Below the pieces are notes generated by a model, which made no database searches, was not told the origin of the DNA, and was given only the letters and a program-made list of their open reading frames with translations. From assembly GCA_003990705.1 (NCBI GenBank), contig AP018318.1, positions 620,001 through 684,000 on the forward strand: a stretch of DNA of 64,000 bases, written 5' to 3'. This DNA comes from Nostoc sp. HK-01. Lineage in GTDB: Bacteria > Cyanobacteriota > Cyanobacteriia > Cyanobacteriales > Nostocaceae. Made by a program: the position numbers and the translations under genes. Shown one piece after another: positions 5,249 to 18,616 of this stretch. The stretch's first letter is position 1, and the number at the start of each line of letters is the position of its first letter.

Positions 5249-7519
5249 ATGAGCGGCATAGCTATTAGTACTTCAATTGACGTTACACTTCCAGAATGGC
5301 TTAACAAATGTTTGCGAGAGTCATCACCAAGAAGTGGCGAAGCAGAAGAAAGAAGGCAGAATGATGCTTCGTTAATTTGTCGAGCATTTACCTTTGCCTA
5401 TCAACTCCATCATGGACAATTTCGCAAATCTGGAGAACCATATATTTGTCATCCCGTCGCCGTAGCGGGTTTGCTACGTGATTTAGGGGGTAGTCCTGCT
5501 ATGATAGCAGCTGGATTTCTTCATGATGTAGTTGAAGATACAGATGTCACAATTGAAGAAATCGAAGAGCTATTTGGCTCAGAAGTACGGCAGCTAGTCG
5601 AAGGTGTAACTAAGCTTTCTAAGATTAATTTTAAAAGTAAAACCGAAAGCCAAGCCGAAAATTTCCGTCGGATGTTTTTGGCGATGGCTCAAGATATCAG
5701 AGTTATTGTCGTTAAGTTAGCAGATCGTTTGCATAATATGCGAACTCTGCAATACATGTCAGAAGACAGTCGTCGTCGCAGCGCCCAAGAAACACGAGAT
5801 ATCTTTGCACCTTTAGCCAACCGTTTAGGTATTTGGCATATTAAGTGGGAATTAGAAGATTTAGCATTTAAATATCTCGAACCGGAAGCTTTTCGCCAAA
5901 TGCAGCAGCATGTTTCGGAAAAACGCACGGCGCGAGAAGAGAAATTAGCTAAAGCTACAGCAATTTTGCGAGAACGTTTGCCACATGCTGGAATACACTG
6001 CTTAGATATTAGCGGTCGTCCCAAGCATTTGTATAGCATTTATCAAAAAATGCAGCGACAGCAAAAGGAATTTCATGAAATTTATGATTTAGCCGCGCTG
6101 CGAATTATTGTCCAAACGAATGAAGAATGCTATCGTGCTTTAGCTGTTGTTCATGATGCTTTTCGTCCGATTCCTGGTAGATTTAAGGACTATATAGGAT
6201 TACCTAAGCCCAACCGTTATCAATCTTTGCATACTGGGGTAATTGGTCTGACTGGTCGTCCTTTAGAAATCCAAATTCGTACCCTGGAAATGCACCATAT
6301 CGCGGAATATGGGATTGCAGCCCATTGGAAATATAAAGAAACGGGTGGTTCTAATAGTCCGTTCACAGCATCTGATGAAAAGTTTACGTGGTTACGCCAG
6401 CTATTAGAATGGCAAAGTGACCTGAAAGATGCTCAAGAATATTTAGATAGCGTCAAAGATAACTTGTTTGAAGACGATGTTTATGTCTTCACTCCCAAGG
6501 GCGATGTTGTATCTTTAAATCCTGGTTCTACCAGTATAGATTTTGCCTATCGCATTCATACAGAAGTTGGCAATCATTGTTCCGGCGCAAGGGTGAATGG
6601 GCGCATAGTACCTTTATCAACAAGGTTGCAAAATGGCGATATTGTGGAAATTCTGACCCAAAAGAATAGCCATCCCAGTTTAGACTGGTTGAATTTTGTC
6701 AGGACTTCTACGGCAAAATATCGGATTAAACAATGGTATAAGCGATCGCGCCGCGAAGAAAATGTCACCCGTGGACGAGACTTGTTAGAAAAAGAACTCG
6801 GTAAAACTGGGTTTGAGAGTTTGCTAAAATCAGACTCTATGCAGACTGTTGCGGAAAAGTGCAACTATCACAGCGTAGAAGATTTACTCGCAGGTTTGGG
6901 TTATGGCGAAATTACCTTGAATTTGGTACTCAACCGCTGGCGAGAAGTTGTCAAGGCACAGCAACCTGCCACAATGGTGATACCGCCATTTGTCCCCAAA
7001 GAATCATCAGCAACAGCCAAAGCTTTGCGAGAATTACCTCACAGTAGCTCCCGTGCCAGTGATTCGCCAATCGTAGGGGTGGAAGGTTTAGTGTATCATC
7101 TGGCTGGGTGTTGTACACCGATTCCTGGTGAATCAATTATTGGCGTAGTAACACGAGGACGAGGAATTTCTATCCATCGCCAAGGGTGTCATAATCTGGA
7201 TAATGTGGAGTGCGATCGCCTAATACCAGTAAAATGGAACTCCGCTGTAGAAACGAGGGCGCGTCCCCACACTTACCCTGTTAATATCCAAATTGAAGCT
7301 CTTGACCGTGTTGGCGTTTTAAAAGATGTTTTATCGCGGTTAAGCGACCAAGGAATTAACGTCCGCCATGCACAAGTCAAAACAGCTATTGGACAACCAG
7401 CTTTAATGGATTTAGGTATAGATATACGCGATCGCTCCCAACTAGAACAAGTGTTTGTCCAAATTAAAAAAATGAGCGATATTGTCAATATTCGCCGTGT
7501 TGGTCAAAATGAGGAGTAG
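5249..7519 (+). CDS. rel: Bifunctional (p)ppGpp synthetase/hydrolase (Rel/SpoT)
   Basis: A 756-residue long RSH enzyme that makes and degrades the stringent-response alarmone (p)ppGpp. The hydrolase HD domain is intact (H68 in ICHPVAVAG, H92-D93 in FLHDVVEDT, and VVKLADRLHNMRTL). The synthetase domain (about 240-370) has YDLAALRI and PKPNRYQSLHT, with RFKD in the RXKD form that marks bifunctional enzymes rather than EXDD RelA. A TGS domain follows (about 409-470, DDVYVFTPKGDV), then a Cys-containing helical/zinc-finger region (HLAGCCTPIPGE) and a C-terminal ACT domain (about 675-750). Length is normal. Monocistronic, with a heptamer repeat directly after the stop. Confidence 0.95.
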   Translation: MSGIAISTSIDVTLPEWLNKCLRESSPRSGEAEERRQNDASLICRAFTFAYQLHHGQFRKSGEPYICHPVAVAGLLRDLGGSPAMIAAGFLHDVVEDTDVTIEEIEELFGSEVRQLVEGVTKLSKINFKSKTESQAENFRRMFLAMAQDIRVIVVKLADRLHNMRTLQYMSEDSRRRSAQETRDIFAPLANRLGIWHIKWELEDLAFKYLEPEAFRQMQQHVSEKRTAREEKLAKATAILRERLPHAGIHCLDISGRPKHLYSIYQKMQRQQKEFHEIYDLAALRIIVQTNEECYRALAVVHDAFRPIPGRFKDYIGLPKPNRYQSLHTGVIGLTGRPLEIQIRTLEMHHIAEYGIAAHWKYKETGGSNSPFTASDEKFTWLRQLLEWQSDLKDAQEYLDSVKDNLFEDDVYVFTPKGDVVSLNPGSTSIDFAYRIHTEVGNHCSGARVNGRIVPLSTRLQNGDIVEILTQKNSHPSLDWLNFVRTSTAKYRIKQWYKRSRREENVTRGRDLLEKELGKTGFESLLKSDSMQTVAEKCNYHSVEDLLAGLGYGEITLNLVLNRWREVVKAQQPATMVIPPFVPKESSATAKALRELPHSSSRASDSPIVGVEGLVYHLAGCCTPIPGESIIGVVTRGRGISIHRQGCHNLDNVECDRLIPVKWNSAVETRARPHTYPVNIQIEALDRVGVLKDVLSRLSDQGINVRHAQVKTAIGQPALMDLGIDIRDRSQLEQVFVQIKKMSDIVNIRRVGQNEE

Positions 7520-7565: not shown

Positions 7566-9680
7566 TTACTCAGCACTCAGTACTTTCCTGTAAAAACTTT
7601 CTAGCCCAGCAACACAAGCCTGGTCATCAAATAGTAGATGATGATTCTGACTCATTTTTTCGGCTATGTTGTTTCGCCAAGTAGAGTCTAGACCTAGTTT
7701 AACGGCGATATCAATATATTCTGCGGCATTTTGCGCGATGGTGTCGGTTACTCCCAGCATTTTAAGAAAGCTATCGGAGTGACGACCACGCATAAATTCT
7801 CCTGGACAAGTGACAACCGGAAGATTACAAGCGATCGCTTCTAAGGTAGTATTACCACCAGACCATGTAAAAGTATCCAGATAAACATCTGCAAGCAAGT
7901 TAATCATCAAATAGTCTAAACGTTCTGGGATACTCAAAAATACACAGTAATCTTCACTATTCAAATTAATCGCAGCAAAGGCGCGTTGTAGTCGCGCCTG
8001 GAGTAAAGTTCCTCGCAAAAATACAAATTTCGCTTGCGGAACACGACGCGCAATTTCCGCCAAAATAAAATCATATTGTGGTAAATATTTAAACGGTGCT
8101 TGGCAACATAAATAAATTACCGCATCATCTGGAAGTTGAAAATCTGAGCGAGTTTTGATAATTGGAGGAATATAAGGTTTGGGGTAAGATACACCAATAT
8201 TTGGTAAGCGAATTAGTTTCTCAGAATAATGTGCTTGTGCATTTTCTGTTTCCATTAACTCGCTAGATAAAAAATAATCAATTGTTGGTAAACCAGTTGT
8301 AACAGGATGTCCCCAAGCGACACATTGTACAGGTGCAAGCCGCAGTCCAGCAATTTGCATAGTTTGCGGATTCATGCCAATTTCAGGAAACACTAAAATA
8401 TGTAAATTATCAGCAATTATTTGTTCACAAACACCTGGCAAATTATGAGGAATATGGTGAAAAACATCGCTATATTCTTGAAATTGTTCTGTTACTGGAT
8501 CTGGTTCATTTCCTGTATAGTAACAGTAAATTTCAAAGAGTTGATGATTACAGTAGCGCAGCCAACCAGTTAACCATAATGTACCGCTATAAGAATGTAA
8601 GAAATGGGAAACATAGCCAATGCGAATTTTTTGCTGTGGCTGGAGATTTGGTATGGATAAAGGCGCAACCCACTGGGGATAATTTGCAGCCATAATTTTA
8701 TGGACTAATTGTCCATATTGACTTTGCAAATCTCGATCATTTTGTGCTTGATAAGATAGATAAAAGTTTGTCAGCCGACCTATACCAGCTAAGGCATTAT
8801 TTTTTGATTCTGGAGTATTTAGGCTGGTTTGTGCAATTAAATCTTGTAATCCTTGGATATAGCGCTGGCGATAAAAATTTATTTCATTTTCATGATCATA
8901 AATACTGGGAACTGTTAAATATTTCAGCAGTTTAAAAGTATAGTCATCAGGTATCCATTTACAAGCATTCTCAGCACTAGCAATTGCTTCTTTGGTTCGA
9001 CCATTACGACGCAGGTCAATAATTAGCGAAAAATGTAAGCTACCTTCAGTAGGGTATAATGCGATCGCCTGATTCAGGGTTGCATAATACGCCTCTGTTT
9101 GCTGGGAACTTCTATAGCAATGAATCAAATTACCATAAATTTCTAAACTATAGATTTGAAATTCTAGCAGTTTTTGATATTGTGCGATCGCAGCTTGCCA
9201 TTGTCCTTCTTGGCATAACTTATTAGCCAAATCATAAATAAGTTGAACTATCGATATATTACAGAATTCATCTATTGTATATTTTGGAATATTGTCGGCT
9301 GGCGAATAACTTAAATCTTCCCTATTACCATCATTTAAAATAATTTGGGCAGATATCATCTCCCAACATTCAGCATCTAAACTGTCAATTATAGAAATTT
9401 CACATCCTGTACTACTTATATCAGAATCATCTGACATCAAAAGATTCATCAATACGCCAGACAATACTAAATTAGCGATATCTTCAGTAACATTACTATT
9501 ATCTATAATTAGATTTATTTGGTTGCTATCAGGATGATGATTCACCGTTTGAATCACCCTTTCTAAATTTAGGCAAAGAGACTCTTCTGGCTGTGACCAA
9601 TCAGGAAAGATAATTATATTTATATTACTTGTATTCAGGTTATCTGAATCATTGATGGATTCCTTTTCTGTGCTAATCAA
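7566..9680 (-). CDS. SPINDLY-type O-linked N-acetylglucosamine transferase (GT41) with TPRs
   Basis: A 704-residue protein. Residues about 20-130 form a domain beginning INIIIFPDWSQPEES that also sits at the C-terminus of the next gene upstream (at 9848). TPR-like helices follow (about 145-265). The rest (about 350-704) is the GT41 catalytic part (RIGYVSHFLHSYSGTLWLTG, VFPEIGMNPQTMQIAGLRLAP, WSGGNTTLEAIACNLPVVT). GT41 enzymes transfer GlcNAc or fucose to Ser/Thr; the bacterial substrate here is unknown. The start is TTG at 9680: a GGAG Shine-Dalgarno (9689-9692) sits 8 bases upstream and no ATG occurs before the conserved domain. It probably forms an operon with the giant glycosyltransferase upstream. 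Confidence 0.85.
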   Translation of the reverse strand: MISTEKESINDSDNLNTSNINIIIFPDWSQPEESLCLNLERVIQTVNHHPDSNQINLIIDNSNVTEDIANLVLSGVLMNLLMSDDSDISSTGCEISIIDSLDAECWEMISAQIILNDGNREDLSYSPADNIPKYTIDEFCNISIVQLIYDLANKLCQEGQWQAAIAQYQKLLEFQIYSLEIYGNLIHCYRSSQQTEAYYATLNQAIALYPTEGSLHFSLIIDLRRNGRTKEAIASAENACKWIPDDYTFKLLKYLTVPSIYDHENEINFYRQRYIQGLQDLIAQTSLNTPESKNNALAGIGRLTNFYLSYQAQNDRDLQSQYGQLVHKIMAANYPQWVAPLSIPNLQPQQKIRIGYVSHFLHSYSGTLWLTGWLRYCNHQLFEIYCYYTGNEPDPVTEQFQEYSDVFHHIPHNLPGVCEQIIADNLHILVFPEIGMNPQTMQIAGLRLAPVQCVAWGHPVTTGLPTIDYFLSSELMETENAQAHYSEKLIRLPNIGVSYPKPYIPPIIKTRSDFQLPDDAVIYLCCQAPFKYLPQYDFILAEIARRVPQAKFVFLRGTLLQARLQRAFAAINLNSEDYCVFLSIPERLDYLMINLLADVYLDTFTWSGGNTTLEAIACNLPVVTCPGEFMRGRHSDSFLKMLGVTDTIAQNAAEYIDIAVKLGLDSTWRNNIAEKMSQNHHLLFDDQACVAGLESFYRKVLSAE

Positions 9681-9847
9681 TATAAATTCTCCGATTTTTA
9701 AATATTATCTAAACAGATTTTGAGAATAAACATGAAATTTAAGTATGTATTAAAGCAATGGGTAACGCACCACTAAATAAGATGCGTTACGGCCAATTAT
9801 CATTTTTTAAAACTGCCAAATTTTTGCATATCCGAAACACATTTTAC

Positions 9848-12800
9848 TTAACTCTGTAAAACACAGAGTTGATTAATCAAGCTTTCTAGTTCGCAAGCTG
9901 GTAGTGATTCTATAGATAATTCTGCTAAAACCGCTTTATCTTCATGTTCCATAATAATTCGGCTGTTGAGACGGGGTAATAAAGCTTGCCACTGAATATC
10001 TGCTAAACTACCAACCAAAGAAATTTCTAGTCCCTCACTGATGTCTAAATCTTCTTCCATCAGCAAATTCATTGTAATTCCAGAGAGTAACAGTTCTGCA
10101 TCCTCAGCAGAGATGTTACTTGTGTTGATTAGTAGAGTGGTTTTTTGGCTATCAGGATAAGTTGCGATCGCTTTAATTACAGATTCTAACTCTAAACCAA
10201 CCACATCTTCTGATTGCGACCAATCAGGAAAAACAATTAGATTAATTTCCTTAAGATTTAAAGATAGCAGACTAGCATTAATCAAAGCAGTACTGACTAT
10301 ATTTGCCATCTTTGACCAAGAAAAGTTTTGTGCTTGTACTAAACCAGCCTCAATTAATGCTTGACGAATACTAGGTTTCTGCACATCACATAAAGCATTT
10401 GCTAGTTCATTTATATCATCATCATTCACATATATTACCGCCTCGCCTCCAACTTCAGGAATGGAAGCCTTTGGACAAGTAATCACAGGACACCCACAAG
10501 CCATTGCTTCAACAATTGGCATTCCAAAACCTTCATATTTAGAAGGATAAACCAAAGCCAATGCACCAGAATAAGCCGTTGCTAACTCTTCATCACTAAG
10601 CTGCAACATATAAACATTACTACCTGAAGTACAATCTCTAAACTCAGGTGCTAATATCCCACCACTACCTGTACAAATAATATCAAATCCATAACTACTA
10701 GCGAGTTGCGAAAATGCTTGAAAGAATAACATACTATTCTTATAACCATTTCCTGTACCAATTAAAATAAAGTAAGGTTTTGTAATGCCATATTTAGCTT
10801 TAAATACATTAACTTTCTCAAGTTTACTTGGCGAAAAAGTACTACTTACTCCACAATGAGCCACAGCAATAGACTCTATAGGTATCTCAGGGAAACAGTT
10901 TGATAAATCATGCGCTGTATGCTCTGAAATTGCTATGTAAGCCGATGCGTGCTGGATACCTTGATGTTTTACCTGCCACATAGGATTATCCATATTCCAT
11001 CCCATCACTTCTGGAATCATGTCATAAGCCATGAATACAGAAGGTGTTGTTAATGGAGTGGTGTAGTAAGAAGAAATAAATAAATCTGCGCCTTCATCAT
11101 CACAGATTTGTTGAAGCATCTGTTTATCAGCTTCAGTATTGTTATAGTCATAATTGACAATATCTAAATACCTAACTCCAAAAATTTTAGGTGCAGTACC
11201 GCCACGATCAAGGACAACAATATGATTTGCAAATCCATTGGTTGCCCATTCTTCTAATAATGACTTCCAGACACGCGCAATCCCAGTTTGGTAGAGTTGA
11301 AAAAATATGCCATCTACAACAATTTTCGGAACCCTTTGTTTAAAGGTATCTAACTTTTCAAACCATACACCTGTGTAATCAATTGCGTGTAAATTAAATC
11401 TCGCTTTTTTTTGATGTTCAAACTCATGTATTGCTTTCTTACAACCTTCCCAATGGCCATAGTCATCTATCTGAATTCTGCCATGAGGAACAATACTCTC
11501 ATAGAGATTATTAAAAATGTCCATTGTTGATTCATACCAATCTCCATCAGCATGTAGAAAAGCAATACTGCCTATCTTGGACTTATACTGAGGTAATGTT
11601 TCTGCAAATAAACCTTTTACGGGTACAACAATATCCTGGACATTTAAACGTTGACAGATAGATTCTAAGTATTCTGCTATTGGAGCTTTTAAAGTACCAA
11701 CACCATAGCCTGTGAGGTTTGCAGGTGTTCCATTACAGGAGTCAAATTCAGTCGGTTCTGGCATTCCTTCAAAAGTGTCGCAAGCATATAGCAATCTTGA
11801 GGATAAACTGTAGCGTTGGATAATAACTGCTAAAAGTGCTGCTGCTCCTCCTTTATAACTTCCGCACTCCACAAAATTGCCAGGGATATTTTCTAAACAA
11901 ACTTGCTTCGCTAGAGAGTAAAGTGAATATAGCCGAGCTTCGCTCAGGAGAGTATATGGTCTGATAACATCTAAAATCTCCTGAAACTCGTTTACTGATG
12001 GAGTCTCAGATGTTCCACTGACAGAATAATGTTGTAAATGCTTTGGTAAATTCCAATTAACTTTTGGATCAGGCTGATGTTGCACTGGTTCAACGTTTCC
12101 ACGCCAAGCTACCCCCATAATTTGCATAGTTTGGTAGACCATTGTGTTCCACCCTTTCTGCTTAAAGTAGTCTAAGCCTTGGGCTACATCAGGAGAGTTT
12201 AAATCATGAAATAGAATCAATGCGTCAGGTTCTGCTAATTGTTCGCAGGCGATCGCATCATTGAGTGGCCCTGGTGCTTCATGATCACCGTCAATGAATA
12301 TCAAAGACCACTTACGTTGTAATTGCTGGGCTAACTCATCTACTTTTTGTGGGCTGTAACCAGCCACAAGATTTACTGAATCAAAAATACCAGCAGCTTG
12401 TAAAGAATTTCTTACACTGTCATGAATATCTTGTCTGTCTAATAGAGGATCTACTACATCTAATTCAACGCCTGCTAAAGCTAAATGACAGGCAGACCAA
12501 CCAAGCCAACAGCCAATTTCTAAAGCTCTTTTACCCTTAAACTGAAGTGCTGTATTGTAGACAATATGTGCCTCATCTCGACTGAGAAATCCAATACTTG
12601 GTTGTCTCTGATCTACATACCAATTATGGGGAATCTCACTACGTAAATAAGGCCATTTACAAGTGCTTGGATCACCCACAATCATATTAGGGAAAAATTG
12701 GCTCGGTTGGATAATTTTTAAGCCTGGTGAAACGTAATCTCCATCAGGTAATAATGCTCTTTCAACTACTGCCATCGTTTGTTCTAGCATCCGTTCTTCT

Positions 12801-13891
12801 CTAAACATCTCTTCTGCTCTTGCCTTGCACGCTTGACCAATTGAGTAGCGTAACTGGTAATTAACTACCCAGTCTTCAAGAGTGCTGACTAATTCACTAA
12901 CTGTGGCTTGTGGATCAACTTTAGGGTCAGTCAGCAGTTTACCCGCCTCACCCAATTCTTCAGGAATACCACTCACGGCTGAAGCAATGACTGGTAATCC
13001 TTTAGCCATCGCTTCCATAACACATAAAGGCATTCCTTCTAATACAGAAGGGAAAACAAAAATATCAGCAGTGTTCAGCCAATCTGAAACGTCAGATCGC
13101 TGTCCTAAAAAAATAACTTTATTGCTTATTCCTAGTTGCTCAACTTCTTCTTTCAAGCTGATTTCAAGTTGTGGTTCAAAAATTCCAGCACCTATCCAAA
13201 TAAAGTAAAGATTATTCCATATTGTGCTGTTGATTAGACGTTTAATTGCCTCTAATTGAAACTGATAACCTTTTCGTGTTTCTATGCGAGCAGCAGTGAA
13301 GCAAACTACTGCATCTGAAGGAATATTTAGTGATTGTCGTAAAGTTTTACGTAAATCTAAATCACAATCAGTGAAATATTGTGGAGGTCGTCCGTAATAA
13401 ATAACTTCACCTAATTTTTTAGGTAGCTTAAACAGTTGGTGTAATAAATTTAAATTCTCAAATGAAACTGCAATTACTGACTTAGCTTTATTATAGTGAT
13501 GAGATAAGTGTTCTAAATAAATTGAAAACTGCTCTGCTAAGTGAGGTTCAACAAGACCTTCAATAATAATGAAAGGTATACCAAGTTGAATAGCAATGTG
13601 TTTAATATTTAAATTAGCAAAAGGATTGGTATTACTACAAATAATTAAATCAGGCTGATTACCTGATATTGCTAAAATTTGAGATAAATTTTGAATAACT
13701 TCTTGAGTTAAGCAAATATGCTCAATCCCTAGATGTTTTTGCTGGCTGATTACACTATCATTTACTGTAAAAGGTTGTAGACAAGTAACTCGATAACCTA
13801 ATTTGGCTAATTTACATAAAAGTGCGTGATTGTATTGTGCAACTCCACCAACTCCCGGATCTTCTGTAGATAATAATATATGTTGATTCAT
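9848..13891 (-). CDS. Giant glycosyltransferase-methyltransferase fusion (GT4-MTase-TylF-GT4)
   Basis: A protein of 1347 residues counted from the ATG at 13891 (MNQHILLSTEDPGVGGVAQ); a TTG at 13924 would add 11. Order of domains: GT4 glycosyltransferase 1 (about 1-385, FPSVLEGMPLCVMEAMAKG); a SAM methyltransferase (about 425-610, ALEIGCWLGWSACHLALAG); a TylF/MycF-type O-methyltransferase (about 650-870, VECGSYKGGAAALLA and the metal-site-like HADGDWYESTMDIF); GT4 glycosyltransferase 2 (about 885-1225, YPSKYEGFGMPIVEAMACG); and a C-terminal FPDWSQ domain (about 1235-1347). It probably builds and O-methylates a glycan on one polypeptide. Acceptor and sugars are unknown. No membrane segment. It lies 167 bp upstream of the GT41 gene on the same strand. 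Confidence 0.85.
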   Translation of the reverse strand: MNQHILLSTEDPGVGGVAQYNHALLCKLAKLGYRVTCLQPFTVNDSVISQQKHLGIEHICLTQEVIQNLSQILAISGNQPDLIICSNTNPFANLNIKHIAIQLGIPFIIIEGLVEPHLAEQFSIYLEHLSHHYNKAKSVIAVSFENLNLLHQLFKLPKKLGEVIYYGRPPQYFTDCDLDLRKTLRQSLNIPSDAVVCFTAARIETRKGYQFQLEAIKRLINSTIWNNLYFIWIGAGIFEPQLEISLKEEVEQLGISNKVIFLGQRSDVSDWLNTADIFVFPSVLEGMPLCVMEAMAKGLPVIASAVSGIPEELGEAGKLLTDPKVDPQATVSELVSTLEDWVVNYQLRYSIGQACKARAEEMFREERMLEQTMAVVERALLPDGDYVSPGLKIIQPSQFFPNMIVGDPSTCKWPYLRSEIPHNWYVDQRQPSIGFLSRDEAHIVYNTALQFKGKRALEIGCWLGWSACHLALAGVELDVVDPLLDRQDIHDSVRNSLQAAGIFDSVNLVAGYSPQKVDELAQQLQRKWSLIFIDGDHEAPGPLNDAIACEQLAEPDALILFHDLNSPDVAQGLDYFKQKGWNTMVYQTMQIMGVAWRGNVEPVQHQPDPKVNWNLPKHLQHYSVSGTSETPSVNEFQEILDVIRPYTLLSEARLYSLYSLAKQVCLENIPGNFVECGSYKGGAAALLAVIIQRYSLSSRLLYACDTFEGMPEPTEFDSCNGTPANLTGYGVGTLKAPIAEYLESICQRLNVQDIVVPVKGLFAETLPQYKSKIGSIAFLHADGDWYESTMDIFNNLYESIVPHGRIQIDDYGHWEGCKKAIHEFEHQKKARFNLHAIDYTGVWFEKLDTFKQRVPKIVVDGIFFQLYQTGIARVWKSLLEEWATNGFANHIVVLDRGGTAPKIFGVRYLDIVNYDYNNTEADKQMLQQICDDEGADLFISSYYTTPLTTPSVFMAYDMIPEVMGWNMDNPMWQVKHQGIQHASAYIAISEHTAHDLSNCFPEIPIESIAVAHCGVSSTFSPSKLEKVNVFKAKYGITKPYFILIGTGNGYKNSMLFFQAFSQLASSYGFDIICTGSGGILAPEFRDCTSGSNVYMLQLSDEELATAYSGALALVYPSKYEGFGMPIVEAMACGCPVITCPKASIPEVGGEAVIYVNDDDINELANALCDVQKPSIRQALIEAGLVQAQNFSWSKMANIVSTALINASLLSLNLKEINLIVFPDWSQSEDVVGLELESVIKAIATYPDSQKTTLLINTSNISAEDAELLLSGITMNLLMEEDLDISEGLEISLVGSLADIQWQALLPRLNSRIIMEHEDKAVLAELSIESLPACELESLINQLCVLQS

Positions 13892-13962
13892 ATTTGTTAA
13901 TTTACTGTTATGGGTTACGTTCAACCAATATTTTTATTTTTTTGATAGTAGTCAAATAAGCC

Positions 13963-14358
13963 TTAGCGATCGCTCTTAATTTGCTGCTTTTTGACATCTT
14001 CTAGAACAACTTTATAGTCTTGTCTGTCAGGATGCAGTTGCACTAACTTTTCCATCAGCGCGATCGCACCTTTGGTATCCTTTAAATGCAGTCGAGCTAT
14101 AGCTAGTTTTTCTAAAGCAACTTGGTTGTTTGGTTCCCTTTCCAAAACTAGTTCATAACCCCGTGCTTGTTGCTGTAAAGAAGACTCAAGAGATACATTC
14201 TTTGTTGGAGGTTGCTGATGTGTTTGTTGTACCCCAGTAATCACCCCAAATACCGTAGAACCCACGAAAGATACTAAGCCTACTATCGTTAAAATCCTTT
14301 TCTTCTGCTCAATTTTCTTTTGTCGGGAAATAATATAATCATCCCCAGAATTAGACAT
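13963..14358 (-). CDS. Membrane-anchored TPR protein
   Basis: A 131-residue protein with a charged, Lys-rich N-terminus, one membrane segment (about 20-43, RILTIVGLVSFVGSTVFGVITG) and two TPR-like units towards the end (ARGYELVLEREPNNQVALEKLA and AIALMEKLVQLHPDRQDYK). TPRs usually bind protein partners; here they probably face the periplasm or thylakoid lumen. It lies 71 bp upstream of the giant glycosyltransferase on the same strand and could be its first operon partner, for instance as an assembly factor. That link is inference. Confidence 0.7.
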   Translation of the reverse strand: MSNSGDDYIISRQKKIEQKKRILTIVGLVSFVGSTVFGVITGVQQTHQQPPTKNVSLESSLQQQARGYELVLEREPNNQVALEKLAIARLHLKDTKGAIALMEKLVQLHPDRQDYKVVLEDVKKQQIKSDR

Positions 14359-14989: not shown

Positions 14990-15208
14990 ATGACTCAGCA
15001 AGTAATTCACCCAATGGTGAAATTGCAGCGTAACGTGCAATCACTCGTAGAATCCAATATCATCAAACCAACTGATAGCATTTGGAAAATTGCCTTTCTC
15101 TATGGCAATGACTGGCAGCACTGGAAACAGGAACTGTTAGACTTTGGCTTCAGTATGCAAGACCCAATCAGTGAACTGCTATCAGTAGAAGCATGGGATG
15201 AAGAATAG
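14990..15208 (+). CDS. DUF4327 family protein
   Basis: A 72-residue soluble protein (MTQQVIHPMVKLQRNVQSL... ending SELLSVEAWDEE). The sequence, with IKPTDSIWKIAFLYG and WKQELLDFGFSMQDP, matches my memory of DUF4327, a small family confined to cyanobacteria with no known function. It is rich in Trp and acidic residues and has no membrane segment. The ATG follows CTAGG closely. It stands alone, convergent with the kinase gene. Confidence 0.8.
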   Translation: MTQQVIHPMVKLQRNVQSLVESNIIKPTDSIWKIAFLYGNDWQHWKQELLDFGFSMQDPISELLSVEAWDEE

Positions 15209-15279: not shown

Positions 15280-16539
15280 CTATACCTTGCAAGCGGCTAA
15301 TGCAGTAGTTAATTCCCTGGCAGTTTGATAGCGATCGCGTGGCAATGGCTCTGTAACACATTCAATCACCTCTCTGATTTGGGGTGTAATCGTGGGAGAG
15401 TTTGCCACATCAAACCGGAAATTTCGTCCTTTTTGGCGGAAAAATTTAAAAGGATTTTCCCCAGTCAGCAGAAAAATTAGTGTTGGCCCAATGGCATATA
15501 AATCTGATTGAATCAGAGGTTGTCCCCGTTCTTGTTCGGGAGCGCAATAGCCTTCTGCACCAATTCGAGTGCCTGGTGTCGTGCCAATTTCTTTAACAGC
15601 ACCAAAATCTAGCACCACTATATGATTATTGGCATTTCGCACCATCAGGTTAGCGGGTTTGATGTCACGATGAATTAGTGGTGGTTCTTGGCTATGCAAA
15701 TAGTCTAAAATTTCGCAGGTTTGAATCATCCAGGCGATCGCTTGGCCGGGTGTTACAGGCCCAGTCATCTGAACACGTTTTTCCAAATCTTGCCCATGAA
15801 CTAATTCCATAGCCAAGTATTTTTTCCCACCTTCCACAAAAAAGTCGTAATACTTGGGGATACCTGGATGATTTAGTGATTTCAGCGTATGAGCTTCCCG
15901 CTCAAATAATTCTTGAGCTTTAGCAATTTTCGCCATATCAGCGTTCATTTGCTTTAAGACCAAAAGTTGCGGATTTCCAGTCATCCAACCTTTTGTATCC
16001 CAAGCTAAATAAGTGGTACCCATACCACCTTGTCCTAATGTTCGCAACACCTGATACTGACGAATTGTCTGTTGCACGACTAGTGGTTGACCACAATGGA
16101 TGCAAAACAAATTTTGTGAAGAATTACCTTCATGGGTACAAGTGTAAGCGGCTCTGGCAGGGTCATGACTTAAAGACACTGATGCAGCTAATTGTTCTTC
16201 TGCTGTACTACTTTCGGGTAATATTTCTTGAATTTGAAATTGCAGTATTGGCCCTCCCTGTGCCAGTTGCAGAACTGCATTATTAGGTAGTGGACTTTGA
16301 ATTACTAAAATGCCATTGAGGAAAGTACCATTTGTACCTTGGCTATATATCTGCCAAGATTCATCATTGTTATCAGCACTGATTTGCCTGAGTTCTAGAT
16401 GATGTCGGGAAACCAAACTATCGGATAAAACCACATGATTATCCGCCGCTCGACCAATGCGAATCACGGCGGAGTTATCAAAGCACCACTGTTTCAGAGG
16501 TGTTTTGTTTTGTGGTTCTAACAGTGTCACAATAACCAC
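15280..16539 (-). CDS. FHA domain serine/threonine protein kinase
   Basis: A 419-residue kinase. An N-terminal FHA domain (about 24-102: IRIGRAADNHVVLSD, SRHHLELR, GTFLNG) binds phosphothreonine. A short cysteine cluster follows (C134, C146, C149: CIHCGQPL). The Hanks-type kinase domain spans about 162-419: glycine loop GQGGMG (169-174), K196, HRDIKPAN with D292, and DFG at 311-313. All catalytic residues are present. No transmembrane segment, so cytoplasmic. The start is GTG at 16539, since no ATG precedes the FHA domain. It follows the PP2C gene by 88 bp with a hairpin between. Kinase and phosphatase probably share substrates. Confidence 0.93.
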   Translation of the reverse strand: MVIVTLLEPQNKTPLKQWCFDNSAVIRIGRAADNHVVLSDSLVSRHHLELRQISADNNDESWQIYSQGTNGTFLNGILVIQSPLPNNAVLQLAQGGPILQFQIQEILPESSTAEEQLAASVSLSHDPARAAYTCTHEGNSSQNLFCIHCGQPLVVQQTIRQYQVLRTLGQGGMGTTYLAWDTKGWMTGNPQLLVLKQMNADMAKIAKAQELFEREAHTLKSLNHPGIPKYYDFFVEGGKKYLAMELVHGQDLEKRVQMTGPVTPGQAIAWMIQTCEILDYLHSQEPPLIHRDIKPANLMVRNANNHIVVLDFGAVKEIGTTPGTRIGAEGYCAPEQERGQPLIQSDLYAIGPTLIFLLTGENPFKFFRQKGRNFRFDVANSPTITPQIREVIECVTEPLPRDRYQTARELTTALAACKV

Positions 16540-16597
16540 AATAAAACCTGCATAAAAAATAGGGAGTAGGAATTAATAAGTTAAAAATTAAAAGTAA

Positions 16598-16621
16598 AAA
16601 GGTAAAAGTCTTTTTACCTTT
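16598..16621 (-). terminator. Hairpin between PP2C and kinase genes
   Basis: Stem AAAGGTAAAA / TTTTACCTTT with a 4-base loop; on the minus strand it is followed by a T-rich stretch. It could partly terminate or attenuate transcription from the PP2C gene into the kinase gene. The surrounding sequence is made of related T/A-rich heptamer-like units (ACTTTTT, ACTTTTG), so it may simply be a repeat. Confidence 0.45.
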
Positions 16622-16627
16622 GACTTT

Positions 16628-18616
16628 TTACTTTTGACTTTCCATGTTTGGGCGGACTTTTGCCCGTACAAGTATTGCAGTAATGTTGTCATGACCATTT
16701 TTTTGGTTTGCCAAATCAATTAATTCATTAACACCCCGTTCTAGGTTAGCGCCAGAACTTAGCAAAGGAAGTAAATGAGTATTCCAATGGGTTTCTAGTA
16801 AATCATTATCTGATAAACCGTCAGAAGCGAGAATTAGCAAACTATCTTCATTAATGTCAAAAAATTCAACATCGGGGTAGATAGCGCTTTCGTCACGCGG
16901 CCCCAGAGCTTGCGTTAATTGATAAGCATCTGGACGTGCATAAGCTATGCTGGGTTCTACTCCCCGTGCAATTTCTCGCTGTCCAACTTCATGGTCTACA
17001 GTGATTTGTTCTAGCCCTCGTTTGCGAGTTAAGCGGTAGAGTCGGCTATCTCCCACATGAGCAACTACTACTTCGGTATCCTGAATCAAGAGGATGACTA
17101 AAGTAGTACCCATACGCCCAACTCCCGAACGGGCATCTTGTTGATTTAACTGATAAATTGCTTCATTCGCCAAATAAACTGCCTCGCGCATATTTTCTTC
17201 AGTTGGGCGCTGATCAGTAGTCCAAAGTTCTTGGAAGTATTGCCGCACTGTGTTAACGGCCAATTCACTAGCTATTTCACCACCAGCATGGCCACCCATT
17301 CCATCGCAGAGGATATACAAACCACGGGCTTGGAAGACTCGGTTCTTAGGAAATTCTAGCTTTTCAACTTTCGTGTCAATCCCAAAGTAGTCTTCGTTGT
17401 GCTGACGCTGACGACCTACGTCTGTGCGTCCAACATCTTCTAGACTGCTTAATTGCATTGACAGCACAATGGTGGGTAAATCATCGCTTTTGCCAGCACT
17501 GTCTTCATCTCGTTCATTTTCTAACTGGATGATGGTGGGTGCCGTTGGATGTTGGTTGGCGGTTGGCGAAAAACTGGGAATTGGCGATGCTTCTAGTTCT
17601 GTGGCGATCGCTTCTAGGCGCGATCGCAACTGGGCAATCATTTGAATTTTCCCTAATTTTAAATCCTCAAAAATCTGCAATACAGCACCAAATTGCGTAC
17701 GTTGAGACTGCCTAAATAGCTCCTGCCAAATCTCACCCAACACTTTTACACTAAAAGGCTGTTCTGTCAGCGATAATGTCTCATCTTCAGTTTCGGCATT
17801 TACTTGTGCCTCAACCTCCCCATACAATCTTGCTAACGCTAGTGTTTGGTCTTCATCCAATCGCAGATTCGACAATTCCAGCAGACTTTGACGACATTTT
17901 ATTGGTTCTAATAATGCCCAAAGCTGGGTCATTTGATAAAACCAATGTAAAATTTGTAACGAACTTGTGGTCTCTTCTTTCCAGAGTTCAATTAACCTTG
18001 GCCAATCAGAACGGTCTTCAATTAGCAAAATCTGGGTGTTACCTTCTTGCCAAGCATCGTGAATTACTGGTATTTCTGCTTGCCCTTTTGATTGTAATTG
18101 TACATAAGCTTTAGCTAACCGAGGAATTTTAATTTCTCTACCTGCGGATGTTAACAATCCTGTGTCTTGATTTTCTAATATTGCTTCAATAGGTGATATT
18201 TGATACGGTTGACAATCCAAAACTCGCACACAAAATTCTGTCTGGGTTGTATTCTCTTCTGAGATGGGTAGAGGTTCTAACAGTTGATAACGTTGTTCTT
18301 TATCTATGTAAGAACCTGCTTTTAAAACAGGTCTCGCAGCAAGCGGTACAGTATATTCCGTGGAAAGAGGTAAAGTTGGTAAATCATCCTGATCATCTTG
18401 CCAACTGCCTAATTCCCAGTCCCCGCTTCCTTCCTTTGTAATAATGGCCAACCAAATTTGCCCACATTCTGCACCGCAGTTATCACAACTTTGGGCATTC
18501 AATGGTACTTCTGTACCACATTCATGGCAAACCAGATGAGTTAGGGAGGTGCCACAGTTTTGACAAAATTTATTAGCTTTGGGGTTTTCAAATTTACACT
18601 GAGGGCAAATCAGCAT
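16628..18616 (-). CDS. PP2C-type protein phosphatase with zinc-ribbon N-terminus
   Basis: A 662-residue protein. The first 53 residues hold four CxxC pairs (CPQC, CQNC, CHEC, CDNC), that is two zinc ribbons. A long middle region follows (about 60-390) with Gln/Glu-rich helices, perhaps a degenerate kinase-like fold. The PP2C domain covers about 395-655: RQHNEDYFGID, LCDGMGGHAGGE, VAHVGDSRLYRL and LASDGLSDND hold the metal-binding aspartates. It removes phosphate from Ser/Thr and is the natural counterpart of the FHA kinase just downstream. Two coding stretches (18401-18430 and 17544-17590) are built from heptamer repeats like intergenic STRRs, giving low-complexity linkers. Confidence 0.92.
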   Translation of the reverse strand: MLICPQCKFENPKANKFCQNCGTSLTHLVCHECGTEVPLNAQSCDNCGAECGQIWLAIITKEGSGDWELGSWQDDQDDLPTLPLSTEYTVPLAARPVLKAGSYIDKEQRYQLLEPLPISEENTTQTEFCVRVLDCQPYQISPIEAILENQDTGLLTSAGREIKIPRLAKAYVQLQSKGQAEIPVIHDAWQEGNTQILLIEDRSDWPRLIELWKEETTSSLQILHWFYQMTQLWALLEPIKCRQSLLELSNLRLDEDQTLALARLYGEVEAQVNAETEDETLSLTEQPFSVKVLGEIWQELFRQSQRTQFGAVLQIFEDLKLGKIQMIAQLRSRLEAIATELEASPIPSFSPTANQHPTAPTIIQLENERDEDSAGKSDDLPTIVLSMQLSSLEDVGRTDVGRQRQHNEDYFGIDTKVEKLEFPKNRVFQARGLYILCDGMGGHAGGEIASELAVNTVRQYFQELWTTDQRPTEENMREAVYLANEAIYQLNQQDARSGVGRMGTTLVILLIQDTEVVVAHVGDSRLYRLTRKRGLEQITVDHEVGQREIARGVEPSIAYARPDAYQLTQALGPRDESAIYPDVEFFDINEDSLLILASDGLSDNDLLETHWNTHLLPLLSSGANLERGVNELIDLANQKNGHDNITAILVRAKVRPNMESQK

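Follow-up and report, generated by a model that had tools for sequence, protein, structure and literature searches.

In the 64,000-nucleotide stretch of the Nostoc sp. HK-01 genome analyzed here (contig AP018318.1, positions 620,001 to 684,000 of the forward strand; hereafter the window), a glycosyltransferase of family GT41 and a multidomain glycosyltransferase encoded next to it have in common a domain of about 117 residues, located at the N-terminus of the former and at the C-terminus of the latter, which we named PDW after its FPDW motif. PDW is a real, unnamed domain family that belongs to a cassette recurring at the cyanobacterial pilA-ogtA locus. Judging from sequence, neighborhood and attached enzymes, we tentatively read PDW, with a confidence slightly short of even, as a small non-catalytic adaptor domain that would mark the glycan-building enzymes of this cassette and recruit the attached enzyme to a membrane-bound assembly, likeliest via a small neighboring protein, TPRmem, or via OgtA, so that a swap of modules would alter the glycan.

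A domain shared by the two window proteins had been proposed in a preliminary description of this region, and direct comparison bore it out. BLASTP aligned residues 14-141 of the GT41 protein with residues 1221-1351 of the multidomain protein (50/132 identical, 38%; 83/132 positive; 92.8 bits; E 3e-23), and Smith-Waterman alignment of both regions scored 220, far beyond 2000 shuffles (mean 35.0, standard deviation 6.4, maximum 71); a chance resemblance is thus rejected. The motifs cited at that time (FPDWSQ, MNLLM, DIS, and EISI/EISL) are present and aligned in both copies, as is an SN...LVLSG/LLLSG stretch. By profile boundaries, the N-terminal copy occupies positions 9288..9629 (minus strand; residues 18-131 of the GT41 protein) and belongs to the N-type clade described below, and the C-terminal copy occupies positions 9902..10252 (minus strand; residues 1225-1341 of the multidomain protein) and clusters alongside other copies of the GT4-PDW type. 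These two are the only PDW copies found in this genome, by protein search (E <= 10) and by profile search (E <= 0.001).

Both genes are neighbors on the minus strand, as previously described, with 167 bases between them. The PDW-TPR-GT41 protein (7566..9680; 704 amino acids, TTG start) matches GT41 in Pfam (PF13844, E 6.7e-33, 114 bits versus a curated cut-off of 25), with a catalytic part at about residues 349-681 and TPR matches below threshold. Upstream lies the gene of the GT4-Methyltransf_24-TylF-GT4-PDW protein (9848..13924), in which Pfam names the four catalytic modules in that order; it has 1358 amino acids from a TTG, or 1347 from an in-frame ATG at codon 12 (position 13891), which accounts for the end given in the preliminary description.

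The lack of a name for this domain held in Pfam, NCBIfam, PHROGs, and Protein Data Bank (PDB) sequences. When 83 PDW members were compared with Pfam, the best match had an E-value of 0.004 in one member, and none of the 25 families listed, from a total of 28, matched more than two members. NCBIfam gave weak, scattered matches for the same 83 members, the commonest being purH models (11/83, best E 2.1e-4, among 25 of 29 families listed); this identity was set aside, since these were weak single-member matches not recurring across the family. None of 39 members matched PHROGs, and PDW had no match at E <= 10 in 177,635 distinct PDB sequences. Likewise, the Pfam and NCBIfam matches listed for both whole window proteins (for the second protein, 25 of 44 from NCBIfam) leave the PDW region uncovered. 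A TPR domain (a TPR-like fold is mentioned in the preliminary description as an alternative) or another named domain was rejected as the identity of PDW, because no consistent significant match appeared in Pfam, NCBIfam or PHROGs and an hhalign comparison with the TPR profile of the loci aligned one column at a probability of 0.07%. Moreover, searches of viral contigs, plasmids, and phages turned up no relative, and a phage or plasmid module is therefore not supported. Literature on the PDW motif and on GT41, Ogt, pilA, and pilin glycosylation in cyanobacteria, with subscription journals thinly covered, yielded no account of PDW among the entries listed.

Conservation in PDW is highest at FPDW, an asparagine, a single glutamate, and mostly hydrophobic residues, and secondary-structure propensities averaged over 214 PDW sequences give a crude pattern of alternating strands and helices. 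FPDW and the glutamate come after the first predicted strand, resembling a nucleotide-binding crest, and by eye we take PDW to be reminiscent of the donor half of GT-B enzymes. This would fit a reduced GT-B-like (Rossmann) half domain retained for binding a sugar or an acceptor, a reading that we nevertheless consider rather unlikely. Profile-profile comparison of PDW with GT4, GT41, and methyltransferase profiles reached a probability of at most 1.07% in an uncontrolled run, and a second, controlled run did not rise above reversed controls, so that homology to GT-B enzymes is not supported by this approach. In addition to the missing PDB match, an iterated, unfiltered profile search of the open reading frames (ORFs) of the loci returned 224 matches at E <= 0.1, all below 1e-3, without a weaker fringe toward other domains.

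PDW is widespread in the family of the window's genome, being detected by single-sequence search in 68/99 genomes and 43/56 genera, where both this search and a profile search of the fetched family loci plus the window counted 102 copies. At the level of the phylum, a 39-member profile found it in 63/386 genomes and 38/142 genera, some of them in further families of the same order and in further orders of the same class. Furthermore, a scan of named-species genomes with the most conserved PDW peptide gave 221 stretches, of which 200 were relatives; among the best 80 matches listed, all names at 78 loci are those of cyanobacteria (e.g., Nostoc, Anabaena, Fischerella, Microcoleus, Okeania, and Trichodesmium), in a scan that is blind to copies lacking the motif and, with the best 80 matches listed, says nothing on absence from other phyla.

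For analysis of the genetic context, 91 loci were annotated with profiles built from the window's own domains: 70 family regions, 20 regions outside the family, and the window, the 71 family loci (window included) comprising two regions for each of three genomes (G063, G016, and G090). Loci were chosen by best matches rather than at random, and the 20 outside the family were picked largely as divergent. The usual gene order consists of PP2C-like and kinase-like genes, a DUF4327 gene, TPRmem, and the PDW enzyme or enzymes, followed, facing them, by ogtA (a GT41 protein of about 740 residues), pilA, and trxB. A pilin was identified in 61/91 loci (54/71 in the family and 7/20 outside), most with ogtA adjacent; since pilins were recognized by a GFTLIEL pattern and only in the stretch fetched, these counts are lower bounds. 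TPRmem was found in 63/91 loci, seven of them among those outside the family. With ogtA called at E <= 1e-100 using the protein of the window's genome, the 99 family genomes comprised 68 with both PDW and ogtA, none with PDW alone, 15 with ogtA alone, and 16 with neither. In the 60 genomes having both on the same contig, PDW and ogtA were at most 10 kb apart in 55, with a median distance of 1.85 kb.

In the window's genome this locus is split. The window holds the flank, TPRmem, and the PDW enzymes; approximately 1 Mb away, at 1.63 Mb, are ogtA (GT41 by Pfam; G000:C1:1629552-1631789, within region G000:C1:1622000-1638000), pilA (Pilin_GH and N_methyl by Pfam), and a trxB-like gene. The window GT41 protein, which carries PDW, is thus not the pilA-adjacent OgtA; the gene of that kind, without PDW, sits beside pilA in the distant region, and from this position we presume that it is the published OgtA. 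An ORF adjoining it (positions 6475-7416 of that region, plus strand) appears by eye to encode a GT8-type glycosyltransferase. Passages of a review on this subject (PMC12288463) describe the Ogt encoded beside pilA as taking part in PilA glycosylation and many other genes as affecting pilin size in cyanobacteria, and in these passages no set of enzymes is given that makes or varies the pilin glycan.

The enzymes attached to PDW are diverse. Among 135 PDW copies placed, 89 finish no more than 60 residues from the C-terminus, 17 begin no more than 60 residues from the N-terminus, and 29 are internal. The module preceding PDW is the second GT4 type in 61 copies, a GT41-type module in 20, another PDW in 7, and a stretch unnamed by the profiles in 25; catalytic modules seen in front of it include GT4, GT41, GT2, DUF5672, and methyltransferases. 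When ten proteins with unnamed or related modules were submitted to Pfam, a part was named in nine (DUF5672, GT2, GT4-like, methyltransferases, TylF, and DUF6716, the last at E 0.0064, below the curated cut-off) and nothing in one. Two unusual architectures were also observed. A single ORF of 2634 residues (locus L090, 3-7907, plus strand) comprises GT4, two methyltransferases, GT4, PDW, GT41, PDW, TPR, and GT41, and thus naturally fuses a large part of the cassette, and the PDW-bearing proteins of four loci from one other family of the order (L223-L226) end in at least two tandem PDW-like units, one of which, in three of the four loci, matches in two pieces, as if split by an insertion.

A quick tree of 134 copies (116 columns), drawn from the 91 loci and a few named loci, left 50 of 131 inner branches open and carried a long-branch warning; copies under 95-100 residues were dropped here as well as from the exchange counts and distance tests, and overlapping GT4 labels were resolved by score. 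On this tree, the label of the module in front changed 23 times for GT4, 13 times for GT41', and 14 times for other modules, all fewer than in shuffles, so that the labels are clustered too. Among pairs of C-terminal PDW copies, the 350 residues in front were unrelated (BLASTP threshold E <= 1e-3) in 21/80 pairs at 70-79% PDW identity, 1/17 at 80-89%, and 0/7 at 90-99%. Modules are therefore exchanged in front of a constant PDW, as expected of a glycan-varying locus. When the preceding modules of two copies are homologous, PDW is conserved less well than these modules, with a mean identity of 56% versus 66% (1190 pairs).

Swaps located directly upstream of PDW, together with its lower conservation than that of the enzymes, would also be compatible with a segment having no shared binding role, whose coding sequence mainly serves as a recombination end for module exchange. 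We hold this to be very improbable, given that PDW also occurs in N-terminal, internal, and tandem positions, that most C-terminal pairs are only 30-60% identical and hence poor recombination substrates, and that the near-invariant FPDW and leucine positions denote constraint at the protein level. In this regard, lower conservation combined with conserved residues fits a non-catalytic, binding part, and the conservation pattern suggests such a role for PDW.

The preliminary description, noting one copy at an N-terminus and the other at a C-terminus, had suggested a docking or dimerization module joining the two enzymes; the domain and its lack of a name stood, and a role in joining just this pair appears too narrow. 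Under such docking, the two enzymes would be held together by binding between the N-type PDW of the TPR-GT41 protein and the C-type PDW of the multidomain one. Consistent with this, most N-type copies cluster in one clade (11 rows, one of them the second tandem copy of locus L110; SH-aLRT, i.e., Shimodaira-Hasegawa-like approximate likelihood ratio test, 95) with C-type copies elsewhere, the placement of this clade relative to other copies resting on weak forks; three distant N-terminal copies, however, form a separate clade. In 5/71 loci a single chain combines homologues of the two enzymes, and the fused chain of L110 bears both copy types in tandem, so that the window resembles L110 cut between its two copies. 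On the other hand, four of these five fused chains carry a single PDW copy, as do 40/68 PDW genomes, so a cognate pair does not accompany the system wherever it occurs. Among the 71 loci, only 11 show the window arrangement, with an N-terminal PDW on TPR-GT41, whereas 20 have TPR-GT41 without PDW (with a 4- or 8-base overlap between this gene and the PDW gene in six loci) and 35 have no TPR-GT41 found by profile, at least three of the latter (L081, L092, and L095) carrying broken or TPR-less versions. PDW is, moreover, found on many other enzymes, and its recurrent companions across the loci are the TPRmem gene, ogtA, and pilA. Docking of just these two enzymes is consequently too narrow, and we consider it improbable; docking is plausible, but to a common partner rather than solely to each other.

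The best candidate for this common partner is TPRmem, encoded in the window at 13963..14358 (minus strand), a 131-amino-acid protein with, by eye, a hydrophobic stretch near its N-terminus and with weak TPR matches, whose gene is a recurrent neighbor and tends to be present where PDW is. Genomes were scored for TPRmem at E <= 1e-25 from a hand-compiled list, omitting a longer paralogue (open frames of about 280-360 residues; E 1e-17 to 1e-10) that occurs in many family genomes, the one of the window's genome being located at G000:C1:1882868-1883227. It is present in 66/68 PDW genomes versus 4/15 genomes having ogtA without PDW (Fisher p 6e-9, uncorrected for kinship). Kinship was corrected via the genus count, in which, among 43 uniform genera of the 50 with ogtA, 36 have both PDW and TPRmem, one has PDW only, one TPRmem only, and five neither. 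The 17 regions from the 15 genomes with ogtA and without PDW contained no ORF matching the PDW profile at E <= 0.1, and a pilin gene (called here by a looser pattern) and a GT41 gene stand side by side in 14 of them. Furthermore, PDW and TPRmem co-vary in partial Mantel tests: with OgtA and PilA controlled for, r was 0.40 (46 loci, p 0.0005), and with trxB controlled for, it was 0.47 (29 loci, p 0.0005).

Taken as an adaptor, PDW would recruit the attached glycosyltransferase or methyltransferase into one membrane-bound assembly, with binding to TPRmem, or else OgtA, as its most likely anchor, and the glycan on the pilin or on another pilus-linked acceptor might change by module swap, the assembly not being rebuilt. 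In the lineage of the window, the enzyme chain is split across two PDW copies, both proteins probably belonging to one complex and perhaps touching via their PDWs. The location of PDW and the swapping of modules are shown by the data; as to binding, which we infer from these patterns, TPRmem is the most likely partner, followed by OgtA and then by another PDW. A fuller version, in which enzymes of unrelated families receive the same PDW address tag and are recruited to a TPRmem membrane platform beside OgtA, so that cyanobacteria would alter their pilus sugars by enzyme exchange, seems to us possible but unlikely as a whole.

Several observations weigh against the adaptor reading. When the flanking kinase and phosphatase genes are taken into account, the PDW-TPRmem correlation drops to r 0.23, the kinase gene itself giving 0.14 (no permutation test; 29 loci), and since TPRmem adjoins the PDW genes, linkage and shared ancestry may produce part of it. 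Co-variation of PDW with OgtA is weak (r 0.22, p 0.01) and with PilA absent (r -0.07, p 0.87), OgtA itself following PilA strongly (r 0.62); modification of PilA itself by the PDW enzymes is therefore not supported by co-variation. Regarding the locus, 30/91 loci have no pilin in the fetched stretch, and outside the family both pilin and TPRmem reach only 7/20 each; PDW and ogtA lie more than 10 kb apart in 5/60 same-contig genomes. In the genus of the window the cassette lies away from ogtA; of the three other genomes of that genus, one has the two 283 kb apart and two have them on different contigs.

Other genes around the cassette follow the recurrent order. A DUF4327 protein of 72 amino acids (14990..15208, plus strand) and FHA/kinase-like (419 amino acids) and PP2C-like (662 amino acids) genes (15280..18616, minus strand), the latter two named by eye and not by family scan, correspond to the locus flank seen in relatives. 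Promoter and terminator scans of the region gave sites no more numerous than in shuffles. A protein of mostly about 440 residues, by eye a dioxygenase, recurs near pilA in 25/91 loci (e.g., L228, 10666-12903, minus strand).

With an unnamed domain, a candidate for its membrane partner, and a defined cassette that many filamentous cyanobacteria possess, a direct test becomes possible. If the PDW tag were a general adaptor, it would provide a natural example of recruiting unrelated enzymes via one small domain.

Compared with known systems, the pilA-linked GT41 protein OgtA/Ogt is close in context, as most family genomes encode the PDW enzymes in its vicinity, and it shares TPR and GT41 parts with the window protein; the differences are that OgtA has no PDW and is encoded beside pilA, about 1 Mb from the window protein. 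With regard to GT41 structures (OGT, bacterial OGT-like proteins, SPINDLY, and HMW1C), residues 507-678 of the window GT41 protein align with OGT chains (whole-protein E about 1e-34) and the FK/YK lysine is kept, whereas the histidine stretch of OGT differs near residue 360, the histidine of GNHPTSH not being kept in the printed alignment, and no alignment stretch shown covers PDW. Both the histidine and the lysine have catalytic roles in OGT, and "O-GlcNAc transferase" should be used with care, as a putative label for this protein. Finally, docking domains of the polyketide synthase type resemble PDW in being small, in sitting at the ends of exchangeable catalytic chains, and in sometimes giving way to a fusion; PDW differs from them in being larger than typical, in its crude alternating alpha/beta pattern, in occurring also in internal and tandem positions, and in being often present as a single copy without a partner.

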